Shown: positions 38,446 to 55,960, numbered from the stretch's first letter. The stretch: 64,000 nt of DNA from Planctomycetota bacterium (GCA_015654675.1 JAATGM010000023.1:1-64000), one strand, 5' to 3'. Translations and numbers: made by a program. The notes: generated from the letters alone by a model not told the origin.

Positions 38446-39417
38446 CTACTTGCGGACTTGCATGACGAGGATGCCGGTTTGGCCGATATCTTCGCCCGTC
38501 GGGGCGACACCGACTGCGGTGTAATTCCCTCGGCGGACGATTGTCGTCGTGGAGAGCGAGTAGCCGGCTCTGGTTTCGGTGCGTTCGGGCTGGTCTTTGG
38601 GGGTCGTGATGCGGCGGAGTAGGTCGACGTTGGCGTTCAGGCCGATGCGGTCGGAGCCGTCGGCGGAGGAGGATTCGAGCACGCCTTCGACGCGGGCGCG
38701 ATAGTCGGAGGCAATTCCGCCTTCGATCTTGAACTTCTGGCCTTCGCTGACGGTGGTGGAGAAGCGGCCGAGGAGGCGAATGTTTCCGAATCGTTCGAGT
38801 TCCTTGGCGACGTCGGCCAGGTCGGCGGGAATCGGCGAATCCGACTTGGCCTTCTCGGCGCTGGTCAGGAAGAACGCAAAGTCGACGATGGCGATGGGAG
38901 TGGGGGTATCGAGTTTGGAGACGAGAACCTGAACCTCTTTCACGAAGCTTCCGGGGCCGCGGACGATGATCACGTTTCGGTCGCGGTCGGCCGCGAAGCG
39001 CGAGCCGCGGCGGTCGAAGACCTGTACGAGCTCGCCGATCAGTTCATTTACCCGACGATTAAGCACCGGGATCATGTAGGTTTCGGACGGATCGCCCGTG
39101 GCGTTGTCGTCGGCGATATCGAGTTGGGCGATGAGCTGTTTTGCGCGCTCGTAAGACTCGTCGGAACCCTGAAAAATGAGTCCATTTGGGCGCTCGATCG
39201 CGCGGAGGCCGACGCCCTCGAACAGTCCACTCACCGCCGCAGCTACGTATTGGCTGTCCGCGTATTTGAGCGCGATGATGCGCGGCGGGTATTGAATCCA
39301 GTTCTTTCGCGGTGCATCGACCGGATTGGACTGCGGCTTCGGGTCCGCCGCGCCGGCGGCGTGCGCGAGCATTAGCAGGTTCGTGAGGGCGACAATGAAA
39401 CAGATTCGAACTTTCAT
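38446..39417 (-). CDS. Exported protein with secretin N-type domains
   Basis: 323 residues. A signal peptide (MKVRICFIVALTNLLMLAHA) is followed by two ring-building secretin N-type domains: IIALKYADSQYVAAAVSGLFE with FQGSDESYERAKQLIAQLDI, and IPVLNRRVNELIGELVQVFD with NVIIVRGPGSFVKEVQVLVSKLD. There is no C-terminal secretin pore core; the end is GYSLSTTTIVRRGNYTAVG. It may interact with a secretin or act as a periplasmic ring protein. Third gene of the ECF sigma operon (12 nt after the anti-sigma gene). Confidence 0.7.
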   Translation of the reverse strand: MKVRICFIVALTNLLMLAHAAGAADPKPQSNPVDAPRKNWIQYPPRIIALKYADSQYVAAAVSGLFEGVGLRAIERPNGLIFQGSDESYERAKQLIAQLDIADDNATGDPSETYMIPVLNRRVNELIGELVQVFDRRGSRFAADRDRNVIIVRGPGSFVKEVQVLVSKLDTPTPIAIVDFAFFLTSAEKAKSDSPIPADLADVAKELERFGNIRLLGRFSTTVSEGQKFKIEGGIASDYRARVEGVLESSSADGSDRIGLNANVDLLRRITTPKDQPERTETRAGYSLSTTTIVRRGNYTAVGVAPTGEDIGQTGILVMQVRK

Positions 39418-39429
39418 GACGGGTCCTTT

Positions 39430-39927
39430 CTAAAGACTGGGCTTGGATTCGGCCGGCGAGGCGCTGGGCAGCCGCACGGGTTCATAAAGCATGACGATCG
39501 AGATGTGGGGATTCCGAGTGGGAAGACTGACAGCCAATGTTGGCGTTGAGGCGACGATCGTTGGAGCTGCACTGTTTTCGGCAACGACGACCGGGGGCGG
39601 AACGATTTGGGACGGCGAGTCGGGCCGATGCAGCGCGCTTCGTACCCCGAGCCCGGCGGTGGCGAGCAGCGCGATGGCGGCGGCGATTCGGAGCGGAGTT
39701 GCAAACGGGCGAATGATGCGGGGCGGTCGCGGGGCGGTAGCGATTCGGTCGGCGGCGGAGGAAAGGCCGACTAGATTGCGATTGAGCAGATCAAATGAGG
39801 TGAACACGTCGCGGCATTCCGCGCACTCTGTCAGGTGAGTGGTGACCTCGGCGCGGCTGACTGGATTCAGCTCATTGTCGAGCCACTCGTCGAGGCGCGA
39901 TTGAATTTCTTCGCAGCGGGGGTTCAT
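39430..39927 (-). CDS. Anti-sigma factor with zf-HC2 domain
   Basis: 165 residues. The ATG overlaps the sigma factor stop (ATGA), the classic sigma/anti-sigma arrangement. N-terminal zinc-binding anti-sigma domain with HLTECAECRDVF (HxxxCxxC), then a linker, one TM helix (IAAAIALLATAGLGVRSAL) and a Pro/Val-rich periplasmic tail of about 60 residues. It presumably holds the cognate ECF sigma factor at the membrane until an envelope signal arrives. Confidence 0.82.
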   Translation of the reverse strand: MNPRCEEIQSRLDEWLDNELNPVSRAEVTTHLTECAECRDVFTSFDLLNRNLVGLSSAADRIATAPRPPRIIRPFATPLRIAAAIALLATAGLGVRSALHRPDSPSQIVPPPVVVAENSAAPTIVASTPTLAVSLPTRNPHISIVMLYEPVRLPSASPAESKPSL

Positions 39928-40454
39928 TGTGATCCTCCGAGCTTGTTTGCGAGGGCGCGGCGGGCGAGGTGGACGTGGGTGCGGACGGCGGCGACTGAGA
40001 GCTGCATGACCTGGGCGATTTCGTTGTAGTCCATCTGCTGCATGTTGCGGAGGATCAGCGCGATGCGCTGTTGATCGGGGAGATTTCCGATTGCGGCACG
40101 CAGCGACTCGATTGACTCGGCACGTTCGACGGCGTCGCTGGGGGACGTGGCATCCTGCGGGTCGAGCCAGTCGGCGAGTGGTTGCGGGGGGCGGCGGCGA
40201 CGCTGGTTGAGGCAGAGGTTGGTCACGGTTCGATACAGCCACGGGGCGAGGGCCGGATCGGTTACGGCCGGGCCTTTGGTCAGCGAAAGTTGGAAGGCGT
40301 CCTGCACGATTTCCTCGGCGTCGTCGCGGTTCCAGACCAGCTTGATGGCAAATCCGAGCATGCGGCGACGGAGTTCGTCGAGCGATGTCGGGGCGGCGGT
40401 CTGGTCTGCGGCTGCATTTGCGGCCGGGGGGCCTTCGAGCATGGTCTGGTCCAC
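39924..40454 (-). CDS. ECF-type RNA polymerase sigma factor
   Basis: 176 residues. Region 2 (LGFAIKLVWNRDDAEEIVQDAFQLSL) and region 4 (LPDQQRIALILRNMQQMDYNEIAQVMQLSVAAVRTHVHLARRAL) are clear; the W-x-R-x-D-A-E-E-(I/L)-V-Q-(D/E)-x-F pattern is typical. It directs transcription of a stress or envelope regulon. Overlaps its anti-sigma gene by 4 nt. A gap of 83 nt separates it from the upstream eight-gene operon on the same strand, so read-through is possible. Confidence 0.88.
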   Translation of the reverse strand: MDQTMLEGPPAANAAADQTAAPTSLDELRRRMLGFAIKLVWNRDDAEEIVQDAFQLSLTKGPAVTDPALAPWLYRTVTNLCLNQRRRRPPQPLADWLDPQDATSPSDAVERAESIESLRAAIGNLPDQQRIALILRNMQQMDYNEIAQVMQLSVAAVRTHVHLARRALANKLGGSQ

Positions 40455-40537: not shown

Positions 40538-42304
40538 TCAGGCGATGGTTGTTGAGGTTGCGGCGAGCACGGCGGCGTCCTGCAGGGTGTGGCCGGTGAG
40601 GCGACCCACGGGGAACGAGGCGGCGGGCTCGTCGGGGGCGGCGATTGGCCAGAGGAACAGGCGGTCGCGGCGCTCGTTGGCGGCGACGATGACGTCCTCG
40701 GCGACCCAGGCCCAGCGGACGGCTTCGGGGGCGCGGAACTCTATACGGTGGGCATCGTCGATGACGACGAGATCGACCATCGGGCGGCCGTCGGCGATGA
40801 GGATGCGCGGCACACCGGAGGCGGCGAGGACGCCGAGAGAATGGACGGCGTCGCCGGTCGGCGGGCGGAGGGTGCGTGCTTCGCCGCGATCCGGGGCGAT
40901 GCGCGACCAGTGCAGGACGCGGCCGTCGTCGAGGCCGGCGACGACGAAGGATTCGGTGAGGGTGAGGCATTCAACGGTGCCGGGGAGGCGGCGGCGGATC
41001 GGCGGAGATCCGTCCGTTGGATTCCACGCGAGGACTGAATCGGCTACGGCGAACCAGAGGCGGCCATCGGGATCGGCCTGGATATCGCGAATGGTGCGGG
41101 CGTTGGCGGTTTCGCCGGGCAGGGTGAATTCGAATTTGTCATCCGCGGCGAGCGACCAAGCGATTAGGCCGACTTCCGAGTGTGTGGCGAACAGGCGATC
41201 AGCGATGATCGTCGCAGCATTCACGCCGCCGCGCACGGGGCGCGGGGGATCGAATGTAAAGGTGCTTAAGACTTCGCCGGATGGACTGACGCGATGGACA
41301 CCTCGGGCTGCGCCGACCAGGAGTGTTTTGGCGCCATTCGTGCACGCCATGCGGACGGAACGGAGCGGGCCGGCCTCGGGTGGCAGTGCGACACGGCGGA
41401 TGGGCTCGTTTGGTCGGTCGGGCGCGAACCAGAGCAGGTCCTGGCCGGCGACGGCGAGGATGGAGGCCGTGCGCGTCGCGGGTTGTGTGGCGAGCAGGCC
41501 GCGGTAGAGGTCGCCGCGCTGGTCGGCGTCGAACATTTTGACCAGATCGGGCATGGGCATGCCGGGGTTTTCGCGCGAAAGGGCGGCGAGGCGCTGCAGT
41601 AACTCTTCAACGCCGGCGATCTGCTTGCGGCGGACGGCGGTGAGGGATTCGCGAATCTGGGCATCGGTTTCGGCGTGGCGCTTGAGCTGAGTATCGCGCT
41701 GGCGATCGCGCTGGTCGGCCTGAAAAGCGGGTGAGCGGAACTCGATGCGAGCAACGCGGATGAGCGAGATGCCGATGGCGAAGAGCTCGGGCTGGAGGAC
41801 GCTGAGGACGGTTTCGGCGGCGGCGCTTCCGGCGTCGGCGCGGACGAGGTCGGCGGCGGCGGATTTTCTGGCGAAGTTGCCGACCGCGGAGAGCAGCAGT
41901 TGCCGGACGCAGGTGACGATCTGGTCGGAGGTGAGGTAGCCGGGGGCGGAGAAGGCGGCGCGGCGGAGGGCGAGCAGCTCGGGCTTCTCGGCGATGATGG
42001 CGGCTTCCAATTCGATGTCGGCCTGGCATTCCCAGCCGTCGCTCGCGGCGAGCGATTCGATGCGGGCCGTGAGTCGCATGGGGCCGGTGGCGAAGAGCAG
42101 CAGTTCGCGGACGCCCTCGCGCGGGATTTCCTCGCCGGCGCGGATGAGCCGGGCGGCGGAGTCGCCGGTGACGAGGGCGGCGCAGTGGATCGGGACGGTA
42201 ATGCGTTTGCGCGCGAAGGCCTGCTCGGCGGGGATGAGGGCGGCGACGCGGTTGGCGGTTCCGATGAGACTGGGGTCGAGCGGCGGATTGGTGGTCGGGT
42301 TCAT
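40538..42304 (-). CDS. SPFH/band-7-like protein fused to a C-terminal beta-propeller
   Basis: 588 residues. Residues about 20-235 read like an SPFH domain: a strand-rich start (ALVTGDSAARLIRAGEE), LAASDGWECQADIELEAAI, then GYLTSDQIVTCVRQLLLSAVGNFA and a GISLIRVARIEFRSPAF end leading into a charged helix (about 205-260). The SPFH call rests on pattern, not on an exact motif. Residues about 275-580 contain repeated strands of WD40 or SMP-30 type (LWFAVADSVLAWNP; CLTLTESFVVAGLDDGRVLHWS). SPFH proteins scaffold membrane microdomains. Last gene of the eight-gene operon, 9 nt after the AAA ATPase gene. Confidence 0.7.
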   Translation of the reverse strand: MNPTTNPPLDPSLIGTANRVAALIPAEQAFARKRITVPIHCAALVTGDSAARLIRAGEEIPREGVRELLLFATGPMRLTARIESLAASDGWECQADIELEAAIIAEKPELLALRRAAFSAPGYLTSDQIVTCVRQLLLSAVGNFARKSAAADLVRADAGSAAAETVLSVLQPELFAIGISLIRVARIEFRSPAFQADQRDRQRDTQLKRHAETDAQIRESLTAVRRKQIAGVEELLQRLAALSRENPGMPMPDLVKMFDADQRGDLYRGLLATQPATRTASILAVAGQDLLWFAPDRPNEPIRRVALPPEAGPLRSVRMACTNGAKTLLVGAARGVHRVSPSGEVLSTFTFDPPRPVRGGVNAATIIADRLFATHSEVGLIAWSLAADDKFEFTLPGETANARTIRDIQADPDGRLWFAVADSVLAWNPTDGSPPIRRRLPGTVECLTLTESFVVAGLDDGRVLHWSRIAPDRGEARTLRPPTGDAVHSLGVLAASGVPRILIADGRPMVDLVVIDDAHRIEFRAPEAVRWAWVAEDVIVAANERRDRLFLWPIAAPDEPAASFPVGRLTGHTLQDAAVLAATSTTIA

Positions 42305-42313
42305 CGGCTGATT

Positions 42314-43420
42314 CTAGTTCGCGGTGGCAAAGGCGTCGTACTTCGCGAGGTCGGCTTTCTGGACGCTGCGGCCGACCTGCTCGATGGCGGCGTTTACGTC
42401 GGACAGGGTAATGGCGCGTTGCTCGCCGCCGCCGACGGCGGAGAGGAATGGGATGGTGGCGGCGCGCTCGGCGACGGCCTTGATGTCGGCGCCGCTGAAG
42501 CCGTCGAGCAAGGCGACGAGGGCCGCGAGATTTACTTCGTCGGCCAGTGGGCGCTTGGCGAGGTAGATTTCGAGCAGGCGATAGCGGGCGGGCTCGTCGG
42601 GCAGGGGGACGTGAATCTTGGCGTCAAAGCGGCCGGGACGCATGACGGCGGGGTCGAGGGCCCAGGGTTCGTTGGTCGCGCCCATGAAGAGGAGCGAGCG
42701 CTGGGCTTTGCGGTCGAAGCCCTCCAGCTCCTGGAGAATCTGGGGGACGACGCGGGTCATGACGGTGCTGTGCGAGTCGCGGCGGCGGGGGACGAGGGCT
42801 TCGATTTCGTCGATGAAGATGATGGCGCGGGGCTCGGCCTTGGCGGCGTCAAATAGCTTTTTGATGTTTTGCTCGGCTTCGCCCACCCACTTGCTGAGAA
42901 TCTGCGCGGGGGAGACGACGAACATGGTGGCTTCGATTTCGCCGGCGACCGCGCGGGCGATCATGGTCTTGCCGGTGCCGGGCGGGCCGTAGAGCAGGAC
43001 GCCGCCGCCGACGTTGACGCCGTAGTGGGTGGCAAGGTCCGGGTGCGAGAAGGGGTAGATCATCTTTAGGCGGATTTCCTGCTTCACGTCGTCGAGGCCG
43101 GCGATGTCGTTGAAGGTGATTCCCGGTTTCTCGCGGATGACCCAGTCGTTGGCGTCAGACGAGCGATCGTCGTCTTCCTTGGCGCGGGCGGGGCGGGCAG
43201 CGGATTTGCGCTGATCGCACGACTTCGCCATTTCGAGCAGCTCGCGGGCGAGGGATTCGTGTTGCTTGCGGAGTTTTTCAGTCGGAGCCGATTCGGCCAA
43301 CTCGATCATGGCTTCGGCGGCCTGAGCGAGATAGCTCTTTGCGGCGGCGTAGTCGCCGGTCTTGTAGGCGGCGACGCCCTTGTCCTTGAGGCGCTCGAAT
43401 GTGGAGAAGCTGACGGGCAT
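42314..43420 (-). CDS. Vps4-like AAA ATPase with N-terminal MIT-like domain
   Basis: 368 residues. Residues 1-68 are a three-helix MIT-like domain (FERLKDKGVAAYKTGDYAAAKSYL). The AAA module has Walker A GPPGTGKT (145-152), pore loop SKWVGE (176-181; eukaryotic Vps4 has SKWMGE), Walker B IIFIDE (200-205), sensor-1 Asn250 and arginine fingers in MRPGRFD (260-266). One AAA domain only, with no protease, TM or second ATPase domain. Known Vps4 proteins pull ESCRT-III subunits out of membrane polymers. Snf7-like genes lie directly upstream (18 nt). The RPGRFD motif is more Cdc48-like than Vps4, so it could be a more general AAA unfoldase. Confidence 0.85.
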   Translation of the reverse strand: MPVSFSTFERLKDKGVAAYKTGDYAAAKSYLAQAAEAMIELAESAPTEKLRKQHESLARELLEMAKSCDQRKSAARPARAKEDDDRSSDANDWVIREKPGITFNDIAGLDDVKQEIRLKMIYPFSHPDLATHYGVNVGGGVLLYGPPGTGKTMIARAVAGEIEATMFVVSPAQILSKWVGEAEQNIKKLFDAAKAEPRAIIFIDEIEALVPRRRDSHSTVMTRVVPQILQELEGFDRKAQRSLLFMGATNEPWALDPAVMRPGRFDAKIHVPLPDEPARYRLLEIYLAKRPLADEVNLAALVALLDGFSGADIKAVAERAATIPFLSAVGGGEQRAITLSDVNAAIEQVGRSVQKADLAKYDAFATAN

Positions 43421-43438
43421 GCTGGGCTTCCGCGGTGG

Positions 43439-44047
43439 TTACTTCGACTCTTTCTGCACGGAGCCCTTGAGGGCGTCCAGTTCGGCGCGGAGGCCTTCGA
43501 GCTTTTCGACTTCGCGGGCGTGCTCGGCTTCGCCTTCGGCGTCGATCATGGCGTCGATTTCCTGGTCGCTGATGGCTTCGGGGGCGGAGGTGGCTGAGTC
43601 GCCGCTGGCCATTTGCTCGACGCTGTCGAGGAATAGCGACATGCGCTCTTCCATGGTCTGGCTCTGCAGCAGGGCGCGTTCCCAGTCAAGTTGGGTCTTG
43701 TTCAGATCGGTTTCGCCGAACATGCGACCGATTTCGGTGGCCATGGTTCCCATGGCAGTGGCGAAATCGGTAGAGGCCTCGGCCTGGCGCTTGATGATGA
43801 GGGCGTTTTTCACGGCGAGGAGCTGGCGCTCCAACATTTTCTTGATGGCGGCGGTCTTCTTGAGGGTGTTGCGTATGAAGGTGTATTGATTGTTGTCGCC
43901 GATCTGCCGGGCGCGGCGGGCGTTGCGGATGAACTCCTCGGTGAACTTGTTCTGCTCGACGATGGCCTTCTCAATTCGGCGGATGCCCTGGCGGACGCGG
44001 ATTTCGCGTTCGATGCGGCGTTCTTCGGATGACTTGAACAGCGACAT
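43439..44047 (-). CDS. ESCRT-III/Snf7-like coiled-coil protein with MIM1-like tail
   Basis: 202 residues, GGGGAG ribosome site. Basic N-terminal half: helix 1 (5-49) and helix 2 (52-89) form the long hairpin expected of ESCRT-III. Then FATAMGTMATEIGRM (95-109) and LNKTQLDWERALLQS with TMEERMSLFLDSVEQM, matching helices 3 and 4 of CHMP/Snf7 proteins. The acidic second half contains ISDQEIDAMIDAE (159-171) and ends with LRAELDALK (186-194), close to the MIT-interacting motif LxxRLxxLK. Coupled to a Vps4-like ATPase gene. Probably assembles into membrane-bound filaments. A PspA/Vipp1-type origin is the main alternative. Confidence 0.78.
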   Translation of the reverse strand: MSLFKSSEERRIEREIRVRQGIRRIEKAIVEQNKFTEEFIRNARRARQIGDNNQYTFIRNTLKKTAAIKKMLERQLLAVKNALIIKRQAEASTDFATAMGTMATEIGRMFGETDLNKTQLDWERALLQSQTMEERMSLFLDSVEQMASGDSATSAPEAISDQEIDAMIDAEGEAEHAREVEKLEGLRAELDALKGSVQKESK

Positions 44048-44062
44048 AGCGGACTCCCCGAA

Positions 44063-44671
44063 TCAGACGCCTTCGGCGGCGGCTTTGTGGTGTTCGCGGA
44101 CGCGGCGGTCGGCTTCGTCGAAGCCCTCGGTCTGGTCCTTGATCATGCCGGTGTCGATCTTGTCCCAGATGTCGAGGACGGCCTGGCCGGCGGTTGAGAC
44201 TTCGGCGGTGGCCGGCTCGCCGGCGATCTTGAGCATTTCGTCGAGGCGGGACTGATACATTTCGCCGGTGACGGCGTCGTTTTCGATGAGTTTTTCGAGA
44301 GCGATCAGATCTTTCTCGCCGACGAGGCCGAGCTTGCTTCCGGTGGCTTTCGCACGTTCGGCGCTTTCCTTAAGCATGCGGAGGCGGCTGACCGTTAGGG
44401 CTTCCTTGCTGCGGATGTTGAGCTGGCGCGAGAGCATTAGCTGCTCGGTCGTGTGAAGCTCGAACTGGCCGGCGAGGGCGCGGCGCATTTCAGGGGACTT
44501 TTCTTTCGAGCCGCGATCGAAGATGTCCTGCTTTTTCTTGGCGAGGTCGCCGACGCGGTTCATGAGGCGGTCGCGCTCCTTTTCAAGGAGCAACTCCTGA
44601 CGGCGGAGTTCGCTGCGCGTCATTTGCGAGAGCGGCTTTTCCTTGCTGGTGAGCCAGTCGAAGAGTCCCAT
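44063..44671 (-). CDS. ESCRT-III-like coiled-coil protein with amphipathic N-terminus
   Basis: 202 residues. The N-terminus MGLFDWLTSK is a likely membrane-inserting amphipathic segment, as in PspA/Vipp1 and ESCRT-III proteins. A long helical hairpin follows (about 18-105; LRRQELLLEKERDRLMNRVG...FDRG...RRALAGQFELHTTEQLML), then helices around LIALEKLIENDAVTGEM and a charged C-terminus. It resembles the C-terminal module of the upstream fusion gene (FDW start, R-x-RLx(9)-Kx3-x3-D-x-G pattern). Starts 2 nt after that gene, with the ribosome site GGAG overlapping the preceding stop codon. Confidence 0.65.
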   Translation of the reverse strand: MGLFDWLTSKEKPLSQMTRSELRRQELLLEKERDRLMNRVGDLAKKKQDIFDRGSKEKSPEMRRALAGQFELHTTEQLMLSRQLNIRSKEALTVSRLRMLKESAERAKATGSKLGLVGEKDLIALEKLIENDAVTGEMYQSRLDEMLKIAGEPATAEVSTAGQAVLDIWDKIDTGMIKDQTEGFDEADRRVREHHKAAAEGV

Positions 44672-44673
44672 GG

Positions 44674-46110
44674 TTACTCCGCCTGCGGCTTTTCTGGCTT
44701 GGCGACGCGCGGGTTGGTCAGCGGCGGCTCGGACTTGCGTGCGGCGCCGGGCGATTCGGCCGAGGAGGCCACGCGTTCATCGTCGCCCTGGAGCTCCTTC
44801 AGGATGGCGGCTTCGTCGTCGCTCATGGCCTGTTCGGCGATACCGGCTTCGAGGCCTTCGACCATGCGGGCATCGGCGCCGAGGGTTTCGAGCATTTCTT
44901 CGGCGGCGACAGCGTGTTCGGTGAGCTCCTCTGAGGTCGGGAGCTTGGCCATCTGGCCTTGCTGGAGAAGCGTGAGATTGTGGATGTCAGTGCTCAGCAC
45001 ATTGATCTGCTGATTGAGCATCGAGGCCGTGGTGTTCCAGCGGGCGATCTCCTTGCGGAGTTGAGCGACCTGTGAGGCGACACGGCGCTTGACGACGATT
45101 GACGTGCTTTGCTTGCCTTCGTCGAGCACCGACTGTTCGCGTTTTTCGAGGCGGGCGATGTCTTCGTAGAGGCGCTCGCGACGGGCGGCGAGTTTGTTGC
45201 GATTCTCGATCAGGTGATTGATCTTGCCGGCTTCGTCGCCCTTGGACGAGAAGAGCGAACGAACCCAATCGAACGCGCTCATCGACGATTCCTCCCGGCT
45301 GCTTTCACCCGGCAGCCCACGATATAAGACGACATCGCCATCGGCGTGCGAAACCTTCAATTCTTCGTCGAACTGGGACATGGATTCGAGCACGCTTTCG
45401 ACGAGGCGCGGCCGGACGTTTAGCTTTTGCGAGATCCTGCGTGCGGAGATTCCGCCCAGCAGCAAGTCGGCGCGGGCGGCATCGATCTCCTGGCGGACAC
45501 GGAGGCGCTTTTCGTTTTCGCTCTCGGGGTCGAAGGAGCGGACGAACTGGATGTCCAGCTCGCCGGCGAGCGGCATGGTTTTCCATCCGCCACCGGGCAG
45601 CGGCTCGCTGAGGATGACATTCAATCCGGGCCAGTCGCGGCCGGCGGTCCATACTTCCGGCGCGAAGCCGGTGGGGCTGCAGACGATGATCAGCTTACTG
45701 ACGCCGCGGACCTGGCCGCTGATGAGGTTGCGAATGTGGGACGAGAGCTCGGAGAGCGTGACGGGGCGCGGGTCGTTGTCGAGCAGAGGGCCGGGCGGGG
45801 CGAGGACTGTTGCGACGGTGACAGACTTCAGGCGACGGCCGAAGAGGAAGCGGCGGGCCCAACCGGTGCGGACGACGGTTGCGCCCTGGGGGAGGCCTTT
45901 GCGGCGCTCAGTGCCGAAGAGGCGTCGGTCGACCATGGCTTTGTGGACGTCTTCGGCGGAGTCGCGGCGGGCGGTTTCGAACCACTGGCCGGGGATGACT
46001 TTCACGGGCGCGGAGGACATGGCGGCCTCGGCGGCGGCGATGAAGTCCTGCTCGGCCTGTTGGGCGCGGCGGCCGGAATCGGACATGGATGCTTTAGAGT
46101 CGGTTGTCAT
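44674..46110 (-). CDS. Fusion: unknown alpha/beta region, winged-helix-like region and C-terminal ESCRT-III-like module
   Basis: 478 residues from ATG 46110, whose ATGA overlaps the stop of the zinc-ribbon gene. Residues 1-190 include an alpha/beta segment (VSKLIIVCSPTGFAPEVW; LNVILSEPLPGGG). Residues about 205-265 look like a winged helix (DLLLGGISARRISQKLNVRPRLVESVLESM). Residues 277-478 are a 202-residue helical module starting MSAFDWVRSLFSS, with a hairpin (LAARRERLYEDIARLEKREQ) and MSDDEAAILKELQ near its end, like the C-terminal acidic helix of Snf7 proteins. A strong internal ribosome site and ATG sit exactly at this module boundary, so a free 202-residue product is likely as well. Confidence 0.65.
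   Translation of the reverse strand: MTTDSKASMSDSGRRAQQAEQDFIAAAEAAMSSAPVKVIPGQWFETARRDSAEDVHKAMVDRRLFGTERRKGLPQGATVVRTGWARRFLFGRRLKSVTVATVLAPPGPLLDNDPRPVTLSELSSHIRNLISGQVRGVSKLIIVCSPTGFAPEVWTAGRDWPGLNVILSEPLPGGGWKTMPLAGELDIQFVRSFDPESENEKRLRVRQEIDAARADLLLGGISARRISQKLNVRPRLVESVLESMSQFDEELKVSHADGDVVLYRGLPGESSREESSMSAFDWVRSLFSSKGDEAGKINHLIENRNKLAARRERLYEDIARLEKREQSVLDEGKQSTSIVVKRRVASQVAQLRKEIARWNTTASMLNQQINVLSTDIHNLTLLQQGQMAKLPTSEELTEHAVAAEEMLETLGADARMVEGLEAGIAEQAMSDDEAAILKELQGDDERVASSAESPGAARKSEPPLTNPRVAKPEKPQAE
45280..45296 (-). promoter_or_regulatory. Internal Shine-Dalgarno and ATG inside the fusion gene
   Basis: Minus-strand GGGAGG (plus 45291-45296) lies 8 nt before an in-frame ATG (plus 45282-45280). 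Translation from it gives exactly 202 residues to the stop at 44674, the same length as the two neighbouring ESCRT-III-like proteins. It sits precisely at the boundary between the winged-helix-like part and the coiled-coil module. Confidence 0.6.
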
Positions 46111-46370
46111 GCGGCGAAGAGTCTCCGGCCGCAGCGCGAGCAGAAGCGGGCGTTTGGACGGTTGCGATAACCGCATTGTGGATTTGCGCAGTTTAGCTGC
46201 TGTGCGCCGGCTGCGCCGCGCAGGCGCGGGCCGAAGTCATCGGTGTCACAGCTGGTCCAGCGGCGGGATGAGCGCACGAACGCGCGGAACATCATGGCGG
46301 GGACGACGAGGAACATCGCCACGACGATGATGTCAAAGAGGACTGCGCCGCCAGAGGAGAAAATGAACAT
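46107..46370 (-). CDS. Small membrane-anchored zinc-ribbon protein
   Basis: 87 residues. One TM helix (LFDIIVVAMFLVVPAMMF, about 11-28), a basic juxtamembrane stretch, and a C-terminal zinc ribbon with cysteines 61, 66, 77 and 80 (CANPQCGYRN...FCSRCGRRLF). The ribbon is of the same type as the two at the end of the kinase encoded just upstream. Its ATG overlaps the kinase stop (TGATG) and its stop overlaps the next start (ATGA), so all three are translationally coupled. Probably an adaptor that tethers the system to the membrane. Confidence 0.75.
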   Translation of the reverse strand: MFIFSSGGAVLFDIIVVAMFLVVPAMMFRAFVRSSRRWTSCDTDDFGPRLRGAAGAQQLNCANPQCGYRNRPNARFCSRCGRRLFAA

Positions 46371-47410
46371 CAGGTAACCGCCGCCTTCGCGAGCGTTCCG
46401 CAGAAGATGCAGTATTGGTCATCGTTTTCGAGCCATGCATCGCACTGGCCGCAGCGGCGCGGCTGGGCGGCGAGCTGGCGGCCGCAGTGCATGCAGAAGT
46501 TGTCATCGTCTTCGATCGGGGCTTTGCACGCGGGGCAGGCGGCGGTGCTGGCGCGACGATTCGGCATGTGACCCGCAACCGGCGGTGTCGCGGCCTTTTC
46601 GATGGCGTCGAGCACCTCGCGCGCGGCGGTGAAACGGCGGTCGCGGCGGGCGTAAAGCCGGGTGAAGACTTCGTCGATCCAGGCGGGAAGATCGTTGCGG
46701 ATCATGCCGGGAGTTTCGGTTCCGCTGGGGCGCTCGCCGGTGGTGATCTCGAAGAGGACGACGCCGGCCGAGAAGAGGTCGGAACGCGGGTCGTCTTCGT
46801 TGCCATCGCGCTGCTCGGGCGACATGTAGGCGAGGGTGCCACTGATGCTCTTGCCGGGTTCGGCGAGAATCGAGCCGGATTGCATGATGCTGTGGGTGGT
46901 GACTTGCAGGGCGCGGCCGAGGCCGAAGTCGCTGATTTTGACATCGCGCGGCTCGATGGTGTCGACGGAGGCGTCCTGGCCGCCGGCGATGAGGATGTTT
47001 TCCGGTTTGATGTCGCGATGGATCATGCCGCAGTTGTGGGCGTGCTCCAGTCCGGTGAGGAGGCCGACCATGACGCCGCGGATGGCCGCGATCGGGAGGC
47101 CGGTGGGGTGGCGCTTGACGACTTCGCGGAGCGAGCAGCCGTCCACGTACTCCATGATGAGGTAGGGCGGATCGGCGAAGGGATCGAGGCCGAGGGCGCG
47201 GACGATGTTGGCGTGTTCGAGGCCGTGGACTGCGACGCCCTCGTGGCGGAGGTTGGCAACGTATTGGGGGTTCGTCGGAATTTTGACGGCGACGGCGCGG
47301 TCTTTCCAAATGTGATGGACGGCCTTGAAGACCTGTCCGAAGCTGCCGGCGCCGAGCGGCGCAACCAGCACGTATTCGCTGACTCGGTCGCCAATCTTTG
47401 GACCGGTCAT
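46370..47410 (-). CDS. Ser/Thr protein kinase with two C-terminal zinc ribbons
   Basis: 346 residues from ATG 47410, with a GGGAGG ribosome site. Eukaryotic-type (Hanks) kinase: Gly loop LGAGSFG (19-25), Lys43 in VAVKIP, HRDIKPEN (131-138), DFG (161-163), SGTLAYMSPEQ. All catalytic residues are present. After a linker come two zinc ribbons with C292/C295/C306/C309 and C320/C323/C334/C337. No TM segment, so it is cytoplasmic. Located second in the ESCRT-like operon; it likely phosphorylates operon partners or senses state through the ribbons (inference). Confidence 0.9.
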   Translation of the reverse strand: MTGPKIGDRVSEYVLVAPLGAGSFGQVFKAVHHIWKDRAVAVKIPTNPQYVANLRHEGVAVHGLEHANIVRALGLDPFADPPYLIMEYVDGCSLREVVKRHPTGLPIAAIRGVMVGLLTGLEHAHNCGMIHRDIKPENILIAGGQDASVDTIEPRDVKISDFGLGRALQVTTHSIMQSGSILAEPGKSISGTLAYMSPEQRDGNEDDPRSDLFSAGVVLFEITTGERPSGTETPGMIRNDLPAWIDEVFTRLYARRDRRFTAAREVLDAIEKAATPPVAGHMPNRRASTAACPACKAPIEDDDNFCMHCGRQLAAQPRRCGQCDAWLENDDQYCIFCGTLAKAAVT

Positions 47411-47432
47411 GGACAATCCTCCCGCGCGGCGT

Positions 47433-47831
47433 CTATCGGTCGACGTGTCGCGCCAGCGACTCGCAGATGACGTAATTATAAGCCCCTGCGGCAAGCCAAC
47501 CAACCAGGACGACGGTCCATGTTAGCGCACCATTGATGTGCCAGCCGGCGAGCCACATGGCCATGAGCATGTCGAGGCCGCACAGGGCGGCAATGAGGGC
47601 CAGGCCGGCGGAGTTTGATTCGAACTTGAGAATGCGCGGAATGAGCGGGTAGGTGACCCACGGCAGCGCGATGGCGAAGGCAATCCACGCGAAGGAAAGG
47701 CGGATGGTGGTCCAGAGAGAGCGGAGGTCTTCGGGGTGCCGCCAGAACCAAATTCCGGCGAGACCGGCGCCGAGGACGCACAGGATGGTGACGACCTTTC
47801 CGCCGACGTATTTTCCGATGGCGCTGATCAT
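47433..47831 (-). CDS. Small four-TM membrane protein, first gene of the ESCRT-like operon
   Basis: 132 residues with hydrophobic segments at about 12-30, 43-65, 75-95 and 100-122 (VVTILCVLGAGLAGIWFW; FAWIAFAIALPWVTYPLI; GLALIAALCGLDMLMAMWLA; ALTWTVVLVGWLAAGAY). No recognised family. It precedes the kinase gene by 22 nt on the same strand and probably opens the operon. Its role could be membrane recruitment or sensing. Confidence 0.6.
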   Translation of the reverse strand: MISAIGKYVGGKVVTILCVLGAGLAGIWFWRHPEDLRSLWTTIRLSFAWIAFAIALPWVTYPLIPRILKFESNSAGLALIAALCGLDMLMAMWLAGWHINGALTWTVVLVGWLAAGAYNYVICESLARHVDR

Positions 47832-48030: not shown

Positions 48031-48088
48031 GCTGGGTTCCCGGTTGGGACGGTTCAGGGTGATTCCTGAGCCGGTCCTGAATCGAACC

Positions 48089-48162
<74 letters not shown>

Positions 48163-48228
48163 TTTTTCATGATCGCCTCGGATGCGGCCTTCGGGTCGTG
48201 TTGGGGCGATTTTCATTTTCCGGGGGCG

Positions 48229-49902
48229 CTAGAAGTTCACCCAGGCGAGGCGGATGAAGGCGTCGATGTCGGTGCCGTCGATTGAACCGTTGTCGTCGAT
48301 GTCGGCCCGCGGCGTAAATTCAGGGGGGAGCGGAGCGCCTAGTAAGGCCGCAGTGAACAGATCGATGTCGACGGCGTCGACGTCGCCGTCATTGTTGATG
48401 TCTCCGATGGGGCGGCTTGGCTCGGTGAAGAGTGCATTGGGGTCTTCGTCGGGCGGGAACAGGAATTTGTATGCGCCGGGCAGGCGGGCAGACCAGGCGG
48501 CTTCGTTGTGCTGCTGTCCAAAGCCGATGGAGTGCTTCAGATCGGCTTCGAGGACGTAGTTGAGACGGAGGATGCCGTCGCGGAGGTCGAGGCAGGGCCA
48601 GGCGTTGTCCTGCGAGGCGCCGCTGTCGCCGCTGTCCATGTAGAGCCGGATGTCGCGCTTCGGGCCGGTGCGGACACGATTGGGGAAGTTTGCGAATTGC
48701 CATGAGCCGGACATCGCGCCGATGCGGCTGAAAGTCGCGGTGTAATCCCAACCGAGATAGAGCGAGACGAGACCGCCGAGACTTGAGCCGATGGTGGAGG
48801 TGTTCTGGCGGTCGGTGAGCGTGCGGTAGTTGGCGTCGATGATGGGTTTCTGTTCGTTGATGAGGAACTGGGCGTAGAGGTTGGCTTTGCCGGGCTGGCC
48901 CTGGTAGGAGTCGTCGGGCGGGAGATAGTTGGGGATGCGGTTGGCGGTGTTGTCGACGCCGACGATGATCATTTCGCGCATCTGGCCGTTGCGGATGAGC
49001 TGGGCGGCAGTTTCGTCGGCGTTCCATGTGCCGAAGGGGCCCATGTCGAAGACGTTTTGTCCGTCGTGCATGTAGAGGACTGGGTAGCGGCGGGTTGGGT
49101 TCTGGGCGTAGCCGCGCGGGCGAAGGACGCGGTAGCCGCGCGTTTCGGCGAGGGTGGTTGAGAACATGCTGAGGTTGGTCTGCGTTGGCGCGCCGACTGT
49201 CGGCGGGGGGACGTAGTTGAAGAGCTGGCCGTCCTGGATGAAGGCGGCGTCGAGCGGGGTTAGATAGCTGCCGCTGACGGGGTCGCGGCCGGCGCCGGTT
49301 GAATCAGTGAAATAGAACTCGATGTCGCGCTGGGCCTGACCGAAAGATTTGGCGTTCCATCGCCATTCGCCATTTCCGCGGCCGGGGGCGATGCGCTTCA
49401 TCGGGGCTGAGTTGAATGAACCGCCGCCCTGACGCCAATTGAGCACGGGGTGGCCGAAGCCGGAGTGGTAGAAGATGGACTTTGTGGCCGGGGATGGCGC
49501 GGCGGGCGAGGTTGCGGCGGAGGCGGGGGATGTGAGGAAGGAGCCGTTTGACGGGTTGGATAGCTGGGAGGCGGAGTCGTTGCGCAGGACGTAGCGGTAG
49601 GAATAGGTCGTGCCGGTGGGGATGGCGATTGCGACTTTCCAGATGGGATAGGCGCCGGGTTCGAGCTTGACGGCGCGGGTCATGTCATTTGCGCCGAGTT
49701 CGGGGATGTCTCCCAGGAGGAAGACGCTGTTGCCGAGGGTGGTGGTTTGGTTGATCTGGAAAGGGACGCTCTCGCGGTCGACCGCGCGTGCAAGCGGCGG
49801 CTGCAACTGAACAAGCGTCGCGAGGATGATCAGTCGAGAAATTGACACTCGGGCGAATGGGCGTCGAACTGAATCGAATGAAAATTGGGTCGCATTTGTC
49901 AT
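48229..49902 (-). CDS. Secreted esterase with N-terminal CBM20-like domain and C-terminal EF-hand/dockerin-like tail
   Basis: 557 residues from ATG 49902. After a signal peptide comes a starch-binding-like domain (VPFQINQTTTLGNSVFLLGDIPELGAND...WKVAIAIPTGTTYSYRYVLRN). Then a putative esterase domain: RRYPVLYMHDGQNVFD, the nucleophile elbow GSSLGG near residue 371, and a HNEAAWSARLPG segment that holds the catalytic His region. The C-terminus has two Ca-binding loops, DINNDGDVDAVDID and DIDDNGSIDGTDID, like a type I dockerin. Likely an extracellular esterase acting on alpha-glucan-bound substrates. It starts 2 nt after the SGNH gene stop, so the pair is co-translated. Confidence 0.8.
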   Translation of the reverse strand: MTNATQFSFDSVRRPFARVSISRLIILATLVQLQPPLARAVDRESVPFQINQTTTLGNSVFLLGDIPELGANDMTRAVKLEPGAYPIWKVAIAIPTGTTYSYRYVLRNDSASQLSNPSNGSFLTSPASAATSPAAPSPATKSIFYHSGFGHPVLNWRQGGGSFNSAPMKRIAPGRGNGEWRWNAKSFGQAQRDIEFYFTDSTGAGRDPVSGSYLTPLDAAFIQDGQLFNYVPPPTVGAPTQTNLSMFSTTLAETRGYRVLRPRGYAQNPTRRYPVLYMHDGQNVFDMGPFGTWNADETAAQLIRNGQMREMIIVGVDNTANRIPNYLPPDDSYQGQPGKANLYAQFLINEQKPIIDANYRTLTDRQNTSTIGSSLGGLVSLYLGWDYTATFSRIGAMSGSWQFANFPNRVRTGPKRDIRLYMDSGDSGASQDNAWPCLDLRDGILRLNYVLEADLKHSIGFGQQHNEAAWSARLPGAYKFLFPPDEDPNALFTEPSRPIGDINNDGDVDAVDIDLFTAALLGAPLPPEFTPRADIDDNGSIDGTDIDAFIRLAWVNF

Positions 49903-49904
49903 TG

Positions 49905-52019
49905 TCAACTCGCTGGTTTGGATGCCGGCGCGGTCGCCATGCGCTGCAGCATCTGAGAGTATATCCCGCTGAATTCTCCGCTGTGTGCGACGCCGTCGTC
50001 GATCAGCGCTTTTGCGCCGGCGGTGTCGCCGGTCCGTGAATACGCATCGATCAGGGCCATGTCCACCGCGACGCGATCCATGCCTCTCAATTGAGTCCGG
50101 GCGTGTTTCAGACAGGGAATCGATTCGGCGAACTCGCCGCAAAGCTGATGCAGCCGGCCGACGTGGCGTTCGACCAGGGCCGACTGGCCGCGGCCGTGCG
50201 TCAACAGGAATTGTCCGCGTTGGATGGCTTCGCCGGCGAGACGTTTGTCGTCGGTCGACAATTTGCCGTGCAATTTTTCGCGACAGGCGAGCAGGAAATA
50301 GGTGTACTCAACGTTCCAATCAGAGTAGAGCGGCACGGAGCGAATGGCGGCCTCGAAGAGGGGCTCGGCCTGGGCGAACTTGCCGTCCTTCACAAGTGCG
50401 CGGGCGACCATCCCGCTGACGGGACGCTGCTGACCGCCGGGGTGGCTTTCGGGCTTTTTCCATTCTTCGAAGGCCGCGAGGGGGCCGGGATCCATCGTAT
50501 CGCGGAGCTGTTTCACGACGTCGTCAAAACGCTGCATCGCGCCTGGATTGGTCTGGGCAAAGAATGGGATCGTATAGAGCATGCGGAGAGTCTGAGCGAC
50601 GCCGCAGCGATCGTACGGGTTGTCTCCCAGTCGGCGAATGTAGGTGTCGTCGTCGGGGAGGCGCTTCAGGGCGTCGGGGTCCACGTGAAGGGGGCCGGTG
50701 AGATTGGTCATCGATTTCGCGATTGAACGAGCGACGAGGGCCTGACCCTTCAGCGATGGGTGGACGTGATCGTCCATGAGTTCCCAGCCGATGCAGCCGC
50801 CGGGGCTGGCCGCGCGAAACTCGCCGCGCAGGTCGCAGAGTGTCGCGCCCCGCTCTGTTGCGGCCTGAAGCACGGCGTCATTTACCGGGCCGGGAGCGCG
50901 CCAGGGCATCGTGTCGAAGTCGATGGCGGCCTGGAAATCGGCTGCCGCGCCTGAATTGTCGCGCTGCGCGAGGCGCGTTTTTCCGCGTAAGTAATGGGCC
51001 TGCGCGTGAGCCGGGCAAATCTTAAGGGCGGCATCGAGTGATAGCATGGCGGCCGCCGGATCGGAGTCGAGTTTGGCGACAGCTTCGCTGAGCAGTGCGT
51101 CCAAGCGTGTGCGGTCATCGTCAGGTAAATCCTTCGAGTCGGGCAGGCCGAGCGGGGCGAGATCGCGTTCATTCGAGGGAAGCGAACAGGCGATGACCGG
51201 TACTCCGCGGGCGCGGCAGCGACGAATCATTTCGGACATGTCTGCGTGGAGATTCGATGCAGCGGCTGATCGGAGCGAGTCGTTCCGCGAGATGAAGGAC
51301 TGGCCGATCATGACTTCCATGAGCGACTTTCCTTCGCGCGACTTGGGGCGGTCGAGCAGCGAGGTAATCCACTGTACGAGGCCTAGCGACCGGGCGGCGC
51401 GCTGAAATCGCATCGCGGCGGGAGAGGTTCCGGCTCGATTCAGAGACGCGACGCCGTAGGCGCCGAAGAATTCATTGTTACCGCCATAGAGGACGACGAG
51501 GTCGGGTTGGTAATTCAGGCCATCGGTCAATATTTCGAGCATGGGGAAACTGGCGATGGCGGTGATGCCGAGGTTGATGATCTCGACGTGCTTGTCCGGC
51601 CAGAGGTCCTGGAGCATCTGCTGCAGCATGACGCCGCTGGAGAAGCCGCGCGGCTGGGGGAAGCCCTTCATGGCTGATTCGCCGCTCAGGAAGATTCGAA
51701 CCGTGTCGGGCGGCTTGGGAGATATGAACGCGTTTTCGTCGATCGAGCCGGGCCGGTCGCGATTGACATAGAAGAAGGTGGCCGGGCCGGACTTGTCGGT
51801 GACGATGACCTCGCCTTTGGGGGATTCGCCAGCCCTCTTGAAGGTGGGGGCATAACCGCCGTAGCCGGCCAACCGCGCCACGCCCTCGAGGCACGTGAGG
51901 CCGAGGATCGGAAGCAGCACAGCCATCAGGGCGAAGACTATCCGCTTTCGGCGGGAGGGGCCGAGCTTTGCGGATTGGGGTGACTTTGCGGCTGGCGCTG
52001 GCATGACGACCCGAATCAT
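49905..52019 (-). CDS. SGNH/GDSL-like hydrolase with TPR-type insertion and C-terminal repeats
   Basis: 704 residues. A cytoplasmic basic start and one TM helix (RIVFALMAVLLPILGLTCL) anchor it. SGNH blocks: Ser115 in LSGESAMKG, GGNNEF (179-184), and DDHVHP with Asp417/His420, so the catalytic set is complete. The chain between blocks III and V contains a TPR-like insert (about 315-370; AMLSLDAALKICPAHAQAHYLRG). A second helical repeat region covers about 530-700. Acyl-ester hydrolysis or polysaccharide deacylation is likely; the substrate is unknown. A start at ATG 52004 is also possible. Confidence 0.75.
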   Translation of the reverse strand: MIRVVMPAPAAKSPQSAKLGPSRRKRIVFALMAVLLPILGLTCLEGVARLAGYGGYAPTFKRAGESPKGEVIVTDKSGPATFFYVNRDRPGSIDENAFISPKPPDTVRIFLSGESAMKGFPQPRGFSSGVMLQQMLQDLWPDKHVEIINLGITAIASFPMLEILTDGLNYQPDLVVLYGGNNEFFGAYGVASLNRAGTSPAAMRFQRAARSLGLVQWITSLLDRPKSREGKSLMEVMIGQSFISRNDSLRSAAASNLHADMSEMIRRCRARGVPVIACSLPSNERDLAPLGLPDSKDLPDDDRTRLDALLSEAVAKLDSDPAAAMLSLDAALKICPAHAQAHYLRGKTRLAQRDNSGAAADFQAAIDFDTMPWRAPGPVNDAVLQAATERGATLCDLRGEFRAASPGGCIGWELMDDHVHPSLKGQALVARSIAKSMTNLTGPLHVDPDALKRLPDDDTYIRRLGDNPYDRCGVAQTLRMLYTIPFFAQTNPGAMQRFDDVVKQLRDTMDPGPLAAFEEWKKPESHPGGQQRPVSGMVARALVKDGKFAQAEPLFEAAIRSVPLYSDWNVEYTYFLLACREKLHGKLSTDDKRLAGEAIQRGQFLLTHGRGQSALVERHVGRLHQLCGEFAESIPCLKHARTQLRGMDRVAVDMALIDAYSRTGDTAGAKALIDDGVAHSGEFSGIYSQMLQRMATAPASKPAS

Positions 52020-53131: not shown

Positions 53132-55960
53132 TTACGGGCCGGTGACCAGTCGGGCGACGAATGGGGCAAAATCGTTCAGGTCGTTCAGGCCATCGGCATT
53201 GAAGTCGAGGGCCGGATTGAAACTGAGCGTCACGCCGGTCATGAGCCCGACGGCCGGCTGCACGTCGTCTCCGTCAATGGTGTAGCTGGTGTTGACGTCG
53301 CCGAGGCCGGCGCCGATGCCGGTGTTCGCGTTGATTCCGACGTATGACAGGATTGTGTAGCTGCCGATGTCGTTGAAGGCGACGACATCGATGCGGTGAT
53401 TTCCTTTGGCTGCGCCGAAAATGGTGCGGCGATATGTGAGGCCGTCGGCGGTGGCGAGGCCCTGATTTGCGTTAGCGAGGGCGACGAGATCAGTCCCGAC
53501 GCGCTGGTTGGCGAAAATGTGGACACGCGTCACTGACGGGTCGCCGGCCTGGACGATCGCGGTGTAGTTAGTGGTGGTGATGTCGTCGGTTCCAGTCTGG
53601 GCCGGGGCAGTGAGAGTGATGGGGAGCGGCGAATGATCGACATAAATGACTTTGCGGAACTCTTTGAAGATGGGCCAGCCGATAGCGCGGCGCTTGTAGG
53701 CCCAGACGTTGATGTAGTGATAGCCGGGGCTGAGCAGGGTGGCGTCGATGGTCTGGCGATAAGTTCCCGTTCCGCCACCGTAGAGTGGCGAGTTTTCGGT
53801 GAGAAAGTTTTCGGCGCCGGCTTCGAACGCGGTTGTGTCGTAGTCGATCACCGAGTTGCCGTTGTAGTCGACGAAGCCGCTATCGATCTTGAAGACGGCC
53901 TTGTTGTCGGTGTCGGGGTCGAGCGGGTCGGTTTGCGTTGTGTGCAATTGGATTTCGAACGAGTTCGAGCGGATGACGTCGACGGGGGCCATTCGGCGGC
54001 GCGCCGGCGGGACGGAGATGTCGTCAGGCGGAAGCGTTTCGGCGACGTTGGTGAGCGTCAGCGTTCCGCTGGGGGGCGTCGGGCCGTAGATCACATAGCT
54101 TCGGCCGTGGAGGACGCCGTTGATGTTTCGCGCGTTGGGGATCTTGAGGTAGAGACTGCTGGGATTATTCGCGTCCTTGAGGCGGCCGGGGCCGCCGGCG
54201 ATGGAGTCGTCTACCTGGAGCACGTCGGGGATCTGGTTGGTCGGATCGACGACGGGATCGGTCGCATTGCCAGTGAGTTCCCAGAGGCGCGTTCCATTGG
54301 GGAAAGTCGTGGCGACGTTTCGGGTTTCGAAACCGTTGGTCTGCTTGTCGTTGACGGCAATGAGAAGGTTGTCGACCGAGCTGGGTGTGCGCCGCGTGAA
54401 GACGAGTACGTCGGCGGTCGACGGATTGACGGTGTCGGTGTTGTTGATGCCGAAGTACCAGCCGCGGGCGTAGCCGTTGCGGATGAGGACGAGCTTGGAC
54501 ATGAAGTCGTCGTAGGTGCCGATAGCGTCATCGCGACCGAAGCGGCGCGGGAAGTTATTGGGCTCGACGCCGAGGTCGGCGGCGTTGTAGTAGACGACGG
54601 GGCGGCCGGGTCGCATGAGGACATAGGCCCACTCGGGGAGATCGTTGACGGGCGTGGTGCCGTTGGTGGTGGGCTGGGTTGAGGTGGGTTGGCCGGTCGG
54701 GGTCTGCCAGCCGTTATCGTGACTGGTGACATGGTGGACGCCGACACTGCCGTTCTGGAAGCCGTCGTCGCTGAGGTCGACGGAGGCATTCAATGCATCC
54801 TGCCAATTTCCGCCGCCGTTTCCAGAGGCGATGTTTCGCAGAGAACCGGCTTCGTCGAGGTCGAGGGCGTCGCGATTACCGAACTCCCATCCCTGGGCGG
54901 GATAGCCGCCCGTTCCGCCGGGTTCACCGGGCTTGCGGACATAGGCCAGTTTGAACGTGTTGTTGTCGACGACCTCGACGAATGAGTAGGGGGTAACCAT
55001 CGAGCCGTCGAAGGCCTTGCGGCGCTGGTAGATGTGCGTGTCCCAAAGATTATCCCAGAACCAATTCGGGATGTGCTTGGCGGCATCGAGCCGGAAGCCG
55101 TCGACGCCGAACTCCTCGAGCATCCAGCGAGTGGAGCGGTTCAGCAGAGCGGTGGCGTTTTCGGGAGTCGAGTCACCCTGCATTGGATCGGTGGTGTTGT
55201 ACGGAAAGATGGTCGTGTTGGTTGAACCGGGGTTACGATTTGTCCCAGGATTTGTGACGAGGGCGGGAGTCAGCGACATGTCCGGATAGAAGCGGGCGTT
55301 GGTCGCGAGCACTTTGTTATAGATCGACCCGGCCGGGATGTTGACGCCGATGGGCGGCGTGCTGGTTGTCGGGTGGCGGATGTAGCTTAGATTTTTTTCC
55401 TGCGCGATGTCGATGAGGCCGACGAGGCGGCCCTGGAAAAGGTCGTAGCAGGTGCCTTGAGATGTTGACTGCGGGCAATTGGTGCCATTGTTGTAGGTGT
55501 GGAAGTCGCCGTCGACATCGCCACCGGATTCGGTGACCAGGAAGCCTGGATAGCTGCCCTGTGCGACGAAGCCGGGGGTGCTCGCGTCTTTGGTGCCATT
55601 GTGATTCATGATGAGGTCGAGGTAGACCTCGCAGTTGGCGCGATGATAGTCCTTTACCAGGAAGCGAAAGTCATTTTCAGTTCCGTAGTGGGTCGGAGCG
55701 GCAGCGGTTCCGAGGTCAAAACGATCGAAGAGGTCGTACCCGATGCTCGATGCGCCGCTCTGGCCTTTCCAAACCGGAGGAAGCCAGGTTGCGCCGTAGC
55801 CGGACATGAAGACGTCGGGCATTCGATGGCGGATGGTGTTCCAGGTCGCGCCAAAGTACTGGACGATCGGGCGATCGGGCGCGGTGAGGGATTGGGCTGA
55901 CGCGGCGGCCGCGAGCAGTCCAACGAGGACGACGGAAATCGACTTCGGCACGAATTTCAT
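53132..55960 (-). CDS. Secreted GH13 alpha-amylase with dockerin-like C-terminus
   Basis: 942 residues. Signal peptide (MKFVPKSISVVLVGLLAAA), then a GH13 barrel with region I DLIMNHNG (115-122), region II GVDGFRLDAAKH with nucleophile Asp292, acid/base Glu329 in FVEVVDNN, and region IV VTSHDNG. Residues about 600-880 are beta domains (Ig- or Fn3-like). The end GDVNTSYTIDGDD...DFNADGLNDLNDF is a pair of EF-hand loops like type I dockerins. It hydrolyses alpha-1,4-glucans such as starch or glycogen outside the cell. Confidence 0.92.
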   Translation of the reverse strand: MKFVPKSISVVLVGLLAAAASAQSLTAPDRPIVQYFGATWNTIRHRMPDVFMSGYGATWLPPVWKGQSGASSIGYDLFDRFDLGTAAAPTHYGTENDFRFLVKDYHRANCEVYLDLIMNHNGTKDASTPGFVAQGSYPGFLVTESGGDVDGDFHTYNNGTNCPQSTSQGTCYDLFQGRLVGLIDIAQEKNLSYIRHPTTSTPPIGVNIPAGSIYNKVLATNARFYPDMSLTPALVTNPGTNRNPGSTNTTIFPYNTTDPMQGDSTPENATALLNRSTRWMLEEFGVDGFRLDAAKHIPNWFWDNLWDTHIYQRRKAFDGSMVTPYSFVEVVDNNTFKLAYVRKPGEPGGTGGYPAQGWEFGNRDALDLDEAGSLRNIASGNGGGNWQDALNASVDLSDDGFQNGSVGVHHVTSHDNGWQTPTGQPTSTQPTTNGTTPVNDLPEWAYVLMRPGRPVVYYNAADLGVEPNNFPRRFGRDDAIGTYDDFMSKLVLIRNGYARGWYFGINNTDTVNPSTADVLVFTRRTPSSVDNLLIAVNDKQTNGFETRNVATTFPNGTRLWELTGNATDPVVDPTNQIPDVLQVDDSIAGGPGRLKDANNPSSLYLKIPNARNINGVLHGRSYVIYGPTPPSGTLTLTNVAETLPPDDISVPPARRRMAPVDVIRSNSFEIQLHTTQTDPLDPDTDNKAVFKIDSGFVDYNGNSVIDYDTTAFEAGAENFLTENSPLYGGGTGTYRQTIDATLLSPGYHYINVWAYKRRAIGWPIFKEFRKVIYVDHSPLPITLTAPAQTGTDDITTTNYTAIVQAGDPSVTRVHIFANQRVGTDLVALANANQGLATADGLTYRRTIFGAAKGNHRIDVVAFNDIGSYTILSYVGINANTGIGAGLGDVNTSYTIDGDDVQPAVGLMTGVTLSFNPALDFNADGLNDLNDFAPFVARLVTGP

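Follow-up and report, generated by a model that had tools for sequence, protein, structure and literature searches.

ESCRT (endosomal sorting complex required for transport) systems of archaea combine Vps4, ESCRT-III and winged-helix proteins with serine/threonine kinases, SPFH proteins bearing a zinc ribbon, or propeller proteins (Makarova et al. 2024, mBio, PMC10936438). Bacteria, according to a 2023 review, have no clear Vps4 homologue (PMC7615534). Parts of a more recent study mention bacterial Snf7-clade genes with a transmembrane (TM) segment beside AAA+ ATPases, as well as bacterial VPS4-like transfers at loci where snf7 is displaced (Ravi et al. 2024, PMC11237479), so the idea of a bacterial Snf7/AAA pair has precedent. 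Here we describe an eight-gene operon in a 64,000-nucleotide stretch of DNA, the window, from Planctomycetota bacterium (GCA_015654675.1 JAATGM010000023.1:1-64000; genome G000, contig C42, in an assembly of 4.9 Mb that is 96% complete). Eight consecutive genes, g1 to g8, run from 47831 to 40538 on the minus strand with intergenic spacings of 22, -1, -4, 2, 15, 18 and 9 nucleotides (Table 1); both coordinates and gaps reproduce exactly those of an initial annotation made from the sequence. The operon probably encodes a membrane-remodelling machine of the ESCRT-III type that is driven by ATP. We found this planctomycete cassette described nowhere in the literature searched; subscription papers, preprints and supplementary tables lay outside that search.

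The product of g6 is a homologue of the ESCRT-III/Snf7 superfamily, a point settled by sequence and structure together and one that structure alone would not settle. The window protein and its near relatives have no match of their own in Pfam, NCBIfam or the PDB, being too divergent and below threshold; the assignment became possible because orthologues from across the phylum were used. When the Pfam Snf7 hidden Markov model (PF03357) was run over 64 whole genomes, its best matches fell on the g6 locus: about 18 genomes lay below E=0.01, the best at 5e-7 and two above the Pfam cut-off, with most of the model covered. One lone match elsewhere (G006, E=0.0085) is apparently on g4. Snf7 is the top Pfam family for ten of ten distant g6 orthologues (E from 2.7e-6 to 4.6e-4); PspA_IM30 is not among the Pfam matches of ten such orthologues, and G000 has no PF04012 match. 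Moreover, when a profile of 29 g6 orthologues was searched against all PDB sequences, the eight leading matches were Snf7, CHMP3 and CHMP2A (E from 0.0034), and hhalign aligned g6 to Snf7 at 49%, compared with 0.6% for the reversed-profile control.

The AlphaFold2 model of g6 (predicted local distance difference test score, pLDDT, 73; predicted template modelling score 0.52) has helices at residues 7-49, 52-109, 115-127, 132-148 and 161-200, that is, a long alpha1-alpha2 hairpin followed by helices 3-5 (alpha3, alpha4, a linker and alpha5). The family also conserves an alpha5-like EIDxMI motif. Foldseek gives, as the four leading matches of the model, CHMP2A from the CHMP2A-CHMP3 filament and CdvB of archaea; VIA-align places ESCRT-III chains at Z 8-9, and BAR and further hairpins follow closely. 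The initial annotation had likened the module nearest the ATPase to CHMP/Snf7, and the orthologue Pfam matches, the PDB profile and the structural searches all bear this out.

Many g6 tails end in a candidate ligand for an MIT domain, the MIT-interacting motif MIM1. A relaxed MIM1 pattern is present in 21 of 59 tails (shuffled tails: mean 1.7, maximum 6), and the strict form [DE]xx[LIVM]xxRLxx[LIVM][KR] in 3 of 59, against 0.02 after shuffling. Textbook C-terminal copies are found in the orthologues L079:7116-7727, L083:7592-8197 and L085:5840-6445 (e.g. EGRMGSRLDALR).

The eight genes constitute a conserved, co-inherited cassette. Conservation of gene order among planctomycetes had been named at the outset as a check, and in 40-odd mapped loci, a few of which possibly represent one species held in two collections, the order g1-g2-g3-g4-g5-g6-g7-g8 is kept at about 14 related ones, some with inserted genes. 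Since these loci share the order while g6 and g7 retain 54-78% identity, the arrangement is more than chance. Two loci (L028, L029) carry a rearranged cassette in which g6-g7 precede g1-g2-g3-g4-g5 on the same strand. Contamination can be set aside because several carriers are single-contig genomes (e.g. G002, G013, G102). Within the same order and below, g7 has matches at E<=1e-30 in 59 of 61 genomes; the best are orthologues at 59-75% identity in most genomes, a minority having only a paralogue near E=1e-40.

More widely, g6 is present in 54 of 198 genomes of the class and in 41 of 199 of the phylum, 40 of the latter with strong matches and together spanning more than 20 families. At distant loci its surroundings comprise the N-terminal part of g4 (g4N) as a separate gene, a gene like the C-terminal part (g4C), one or two g5-like genes and a second MIT-AAA ATPase, AAA2; the same loci further carry g6, g7, g8, g1 and kinase genes. 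Among the 199 phylum genomes, g7 or AAA2 occurs in 39 of the 40 that carry g6 and in 1 of the 159 that do not (Fisher p=4e-39, relatedness not corrected). AAA2 was found in 31 of the sampled genomes, every one of them also with g6, and 19 have both ATPases.

By its domain layout g7 is Vps4-like, yet its sequence does not place it in Vps4 proper, and we do not class it there. It has Walker A, Walker B and arginine-finger motifs, a single AAA domain and, in 19 of 20 family members, a Vps4_C helix (best E=5e-7). Its best NCBIfam model is CdvC (residues 15-364; 235.6 bits, against 223 for CDC48). The SKWVGE pore loop reported initially is there, but such a loop is not diagnostic of Vps4 among AAA proteins. 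AAA2 (about 415 amino acids) directly adjoins g6 in L065, L066, L073, L082, L083, L086 and further distant loci; a search of G000 gave no AAA2 at E<=1e-70. In a tree that took in human and yeast Vps4, planctomycete Cdc48 D1/D2 and FtsH-like proteins and left out archaeal Vps4, AAA2 groups with the yeast and human proteins with moderate support (88/82). Its N-terminal domain aligns with the VPS4A MIT domain over 69 columns (hhalign 82%, E=1e-5; reversed control 0.3%), and the N-terminal domain of g7 aligns with that of AAA2 at 92-96%. Transitivity through AAA2 thus points, indirectly, to an MIT-like domain in g7. A further single-AAA family (L104-L109; reading frames of about 450-500 amino acids), sister to g7 in the tree, was seen in planctomycetes that lack g6 in our sample.

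The initial annotation had counted three helical-hairpin modules, treating 45282-44674 as a product of its own. That interval is instead the C-terminal half, g4C, of the 478-residue g4 (46110-44674), and of the three modules g6 alone has a sequence link to ESCRT-III; for g4C and g5 the resemblance is confined to a hairpin shape. The AlphaFold2 model of g4 (mean pLDDT 76) predicts an alpha/beta domain (1-~195), a winged helix (~198-265, with winged-helix matches in Foldseek), an amphipathic helix (~279-288) and, at residues 293-448, the long helical hairpin and further helices of g4C. g4C is homologous to g5 (hhalign 96%, E=4e-9), and many distant loci have, between g4N and AAA2, two genes that are divergent relatives of g4C (97%) and g5 (97%). 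In distant planctomycetes g4C is a stand-alone gene (L064-L086), and g4N, with the alpha/beta and winged-helix domains, is a gene of its own. A structure search with the hairpin recovers PspA and ESCRT-III among other coiled coils, at E-values not significant alone. The models thus suggest that g4C, and g5 through its homology to g4C, form a second family, ESCRT-III/PspA-like in predicted shape only. For g5 we found no convincing Pfam or PDB relative, and profiles of window g5, window g6 and the order-level families yielded nothing usable in Pfam, NCBIfam or the PDB. PDB matches of the g4 profile (designed coiled coils and a transposase domain) were judged to be chance, as were UBR-type matches for g5 (E=0.004), which span 74 residues of a very large protein.

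The partner genes are more readily recognized. The zinc-ribbon Hanks kinase of the initial annotation is confirmed in g2, with Pkinase at E=9e-39, DZR at E=6e-8, and the HRD (HRDIKPEN) and DFG motifs. g3 matches Zn_Ribbon_1 (E=1.5e-7) and has its TM segment at residues 10-28. The SPFH-propeller assignment of g8 stands in part: the window protein has no Band_7 match in Pfam, the orthologue L094 has one above the cut-off (E=5.5e-5), and weak propeller matches occur in orthologues and the window copy alike. Through its orthologues, then, g8 appears SPFH-like.

Several observations weigh against the reading of the operon as an ESCRT-III machine. The Foldseek E-values of g6 exceed 0.05 and are not significant alone, helical hairpins matching widely, and the g6 tail in the window's own clade is a variant, LxxLRAELxxLK, which is conserved and MIM1-like and departs from canonical MIM1. 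g4C and g5 have no sequence match to ESCRT-III/Snf7 or PspA in Pfam, the PDB or hhalign. As for g7, its second-region-of-homology motif is RPGRFD instead of RRFEKR, the Vps4 beta-domain insert is absent, and in our limited tree it forms its own branch outside the Vps4 clade, near another planctomycete single-AAA family. The MIT-AAA description given initially therefore holds for the MIT-like, single-AAA and Vps4_C layout and not for membership of the clade. Direct hhalign comparison of g7 with MIT fails or is weak, and Pfam gives its N-terminus no MIT match and only weak TPR matches. We considered TPR for this domain and preferred MIT, the relationship between AAA2 and VPS4A running over the whole domain.

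The alternative that survives best is a narrower version of the membrane-remodelling reading and compatible with it: a cell-division machine that replaces FtsZ, comparable to archaeal CdvB/CdvC. Indeed, FtsZ went undetected in 198 of 198 class and 197 of 199 phylum genomes, and CdvC is the NCBIfam model that fits g7 best. However, about 80% of the phylum genomes sampled, which are just as FtsZ-less, have no g6. Because most FtsZ-less members do without g6, the cassette is not a general FtsZ replacement, and we regard a dedicated division role as unlikely.

Somewhat less likely still is a Psp-like response to envelope stress, specific to the lineage, in which a PspA-like coat would work with SPFH, TM and zinc-ribbon partners and the AAA protein would be an ordinary chaperone. 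SPFH and TM partners do recur with PspA (PMC11237479, PMC11188069), and 18 of the 20 planctomycete genomes examined for it, G000 among them, are without PspA, which leaves its slot free. In contrast, g6 matches Snf7 and not PspA_IM30, MIT-like domains and MIM1-like tails are traits of ESCRT systems, and several hairpin proteins stand side by side. We also noted a PspA_IM30-family gene (L097, G017:C13:79388-80032; E=6.5e-12) in a cassette-bearing genome of the same order. Finally, it is very improbable that the operon specifies a coiled-coil and AAA assembly unrelated to membranes whose ESCRT resemblance is generic helical-hairpin similarity: many unrelated folds match helical hairpins and g7 lies outside the Vps4 clade, but Snf7 specifically leads in all ten orthologues, ESCRT-III proteins take the first eight places among PDB sequences, reversed-profile controls fail, and SPFH and TM genes lie within the operon.

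In the membrane-remodelling machine that we favor, g6 would polymerize on the inner face of the cytoplasmic membrane together with the hairpin proteins g4 and g5, giving a composite polymer. g4, whose arrangement of winged helix, amphipathic helix and hairpin resembles CHMP7, may nucleate it, and the SPFH-propeller protein g8 and the membrane proteins g1 and g3 may select the membrane site. The MIM1-like helix at the g6 C-terminus would dock in the MIT-like domain of g7; a g7 hexamer, joined elsewhere by AAA2, would thread and strip subunits and so drive remodelling, and the zinc-ribbon kinase g2 would regulate assembly. In planctomycetes that lack FtsZ and mostly PspA, the machine would probably serve to constrict or repair membranes or to form vesicles or invaginations. 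The initial annotation's further proposals, a complete regulated system and a link to internal membranes, stay at the level of inference. We lean slightly toward a broader proposal, that Planctomycetota possess a full ESCRT-III/MIT-AAA system of old standing in the phylum. It would have MIT-MIM coupling, three proteins of the filament type and two different MIT-AAA ATPases, one from the Vps4 clade and the other, the window's, from a separate AAA lineage that would have become the only one in this order.

Table 1. Genes of the operon and the hairpin half of g4, in window coordinates.
Feature	Position	Strand	Product	Basis
g1	47433..47831	-	132-amino-acid membrane protein with at least 2 strong hydrophobic segments	orthologues in the same place in related loci
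g2	46370..47410	-	Hanks-type Ser/Thr kinase with C-terminal double zinc ribbon	Pfam
g3	46107..46370	-	87 amino acids; one N-terminal TM segment and a zinc ribbon	Pfam
g4	44674..46110	-	478 amino acids; predicted alpha/beta domain, winged helix, amphipathic helix and hairpin	AlphaFold2, Foldseek
g4C	44674..45282	-	hairpin half of g4	homologous to g5 and to stand-alone genes in L064-L086
g5	44063..44671	-	202-amino-acid helical protein of the g4C family	hhalign
g6	43439..44047	-	202 amino acids; ESCRT-III/Snf7-superfamily protein	orthologue profiles, AlphaFold2, Foldseek
g7	42314..43420	-	368 amino acids; MIT-like three-helix domain (1-~75), single AAA domain and Vps4_C helix	
g8	40538..42304	-	588 amino acids; SPFH-like N-terminal half, probable beta-propeller C-terminal half	

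Upstream of the operon lies a plus-strand tRNA-Asp (48088-48163). A sigma-70-type promoter was looked for in the region and none was found, a result that is weakly informative for a GC-rich organism. Directly downstream are an extracytoplasmic function (ECF)-type sigma factor gene (39924-40454, minus strand), which starts about 80 nucleotides beyond the operon, and the gene of a zf-HC2 protein of the anti-sigma type (39430-40242, minus strand); a Secretin_N-domain protein (38446-39417) follows this pair. Elsewhere in the window, the minus-strand intervals 48229-50142, 56055-58211 and 53132-55960 hold a putative esterase in which a starch-binding CBM_20 domain is combined with a dockerin, another protein with a dockerin, and a partial match to alpha-amylase; dockerin-bearing proteins are here found in a planctomycete.

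If planctomycetes do carry a conserved cassette of ESCRT-III and its ATPase, the history of ESCRT as now accepted would have to be revised. Membrane shaping in the FtsZ-less, membrane-rich planctomycetes would become accessible to genetics, and composite ESCRT-III polymers with a two-ATPase arrangement could be studied in a bacterial model.

Set beside known systems, the operon shares with eukaryotic ESCRT-III (CHMP2/3, Snf7) the homology and topology of g6, its alpha5-like motif and its candidate MIM1-like tail, and with Vps4 the layout of g7, a putative MIT-like domain, AAA and Vps4_C; unlike Vps4, g7 has no beta-domain insert and groups elsewhere, and unlike in eukaryotes no ESCRT-0/I/II or ubiquitin component is seen in the operon. 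In CHMP7 an ESCRT-III-like hairpin comes after a winged helix. g4 keeps the same order, although g4C is not related to ESCRT-III by sequence and the N-terminal domain is different. With PspA/Vipp1 the system has in common its bacterial host, the ESCRT-III superfamily and, sometimes, SPFH and TM partners; it differs in that g6 matches Snf7 rather than PspA_IM30 and that PspA is usually a single gene. Planctomycetes go unmentioned in the main text of Ravi et al., and the parts drawn on here report no comparable eight-gene cassette (PMC11237479). The archaeal ESCRT systems have nearly the same parts as the operon, namely MIT-AAA, ESCRT-III, winged-helix, serine/threonine kinase, zinc-ribbon, SPFH and propeller proteins (PMC10936438). 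In contrast to them, the operon is bacterial, its g7 stands outside the Vps4 clade, its winged helix is fused N-terminally to a hairpin protein, and it adds the g4C/g5 family.

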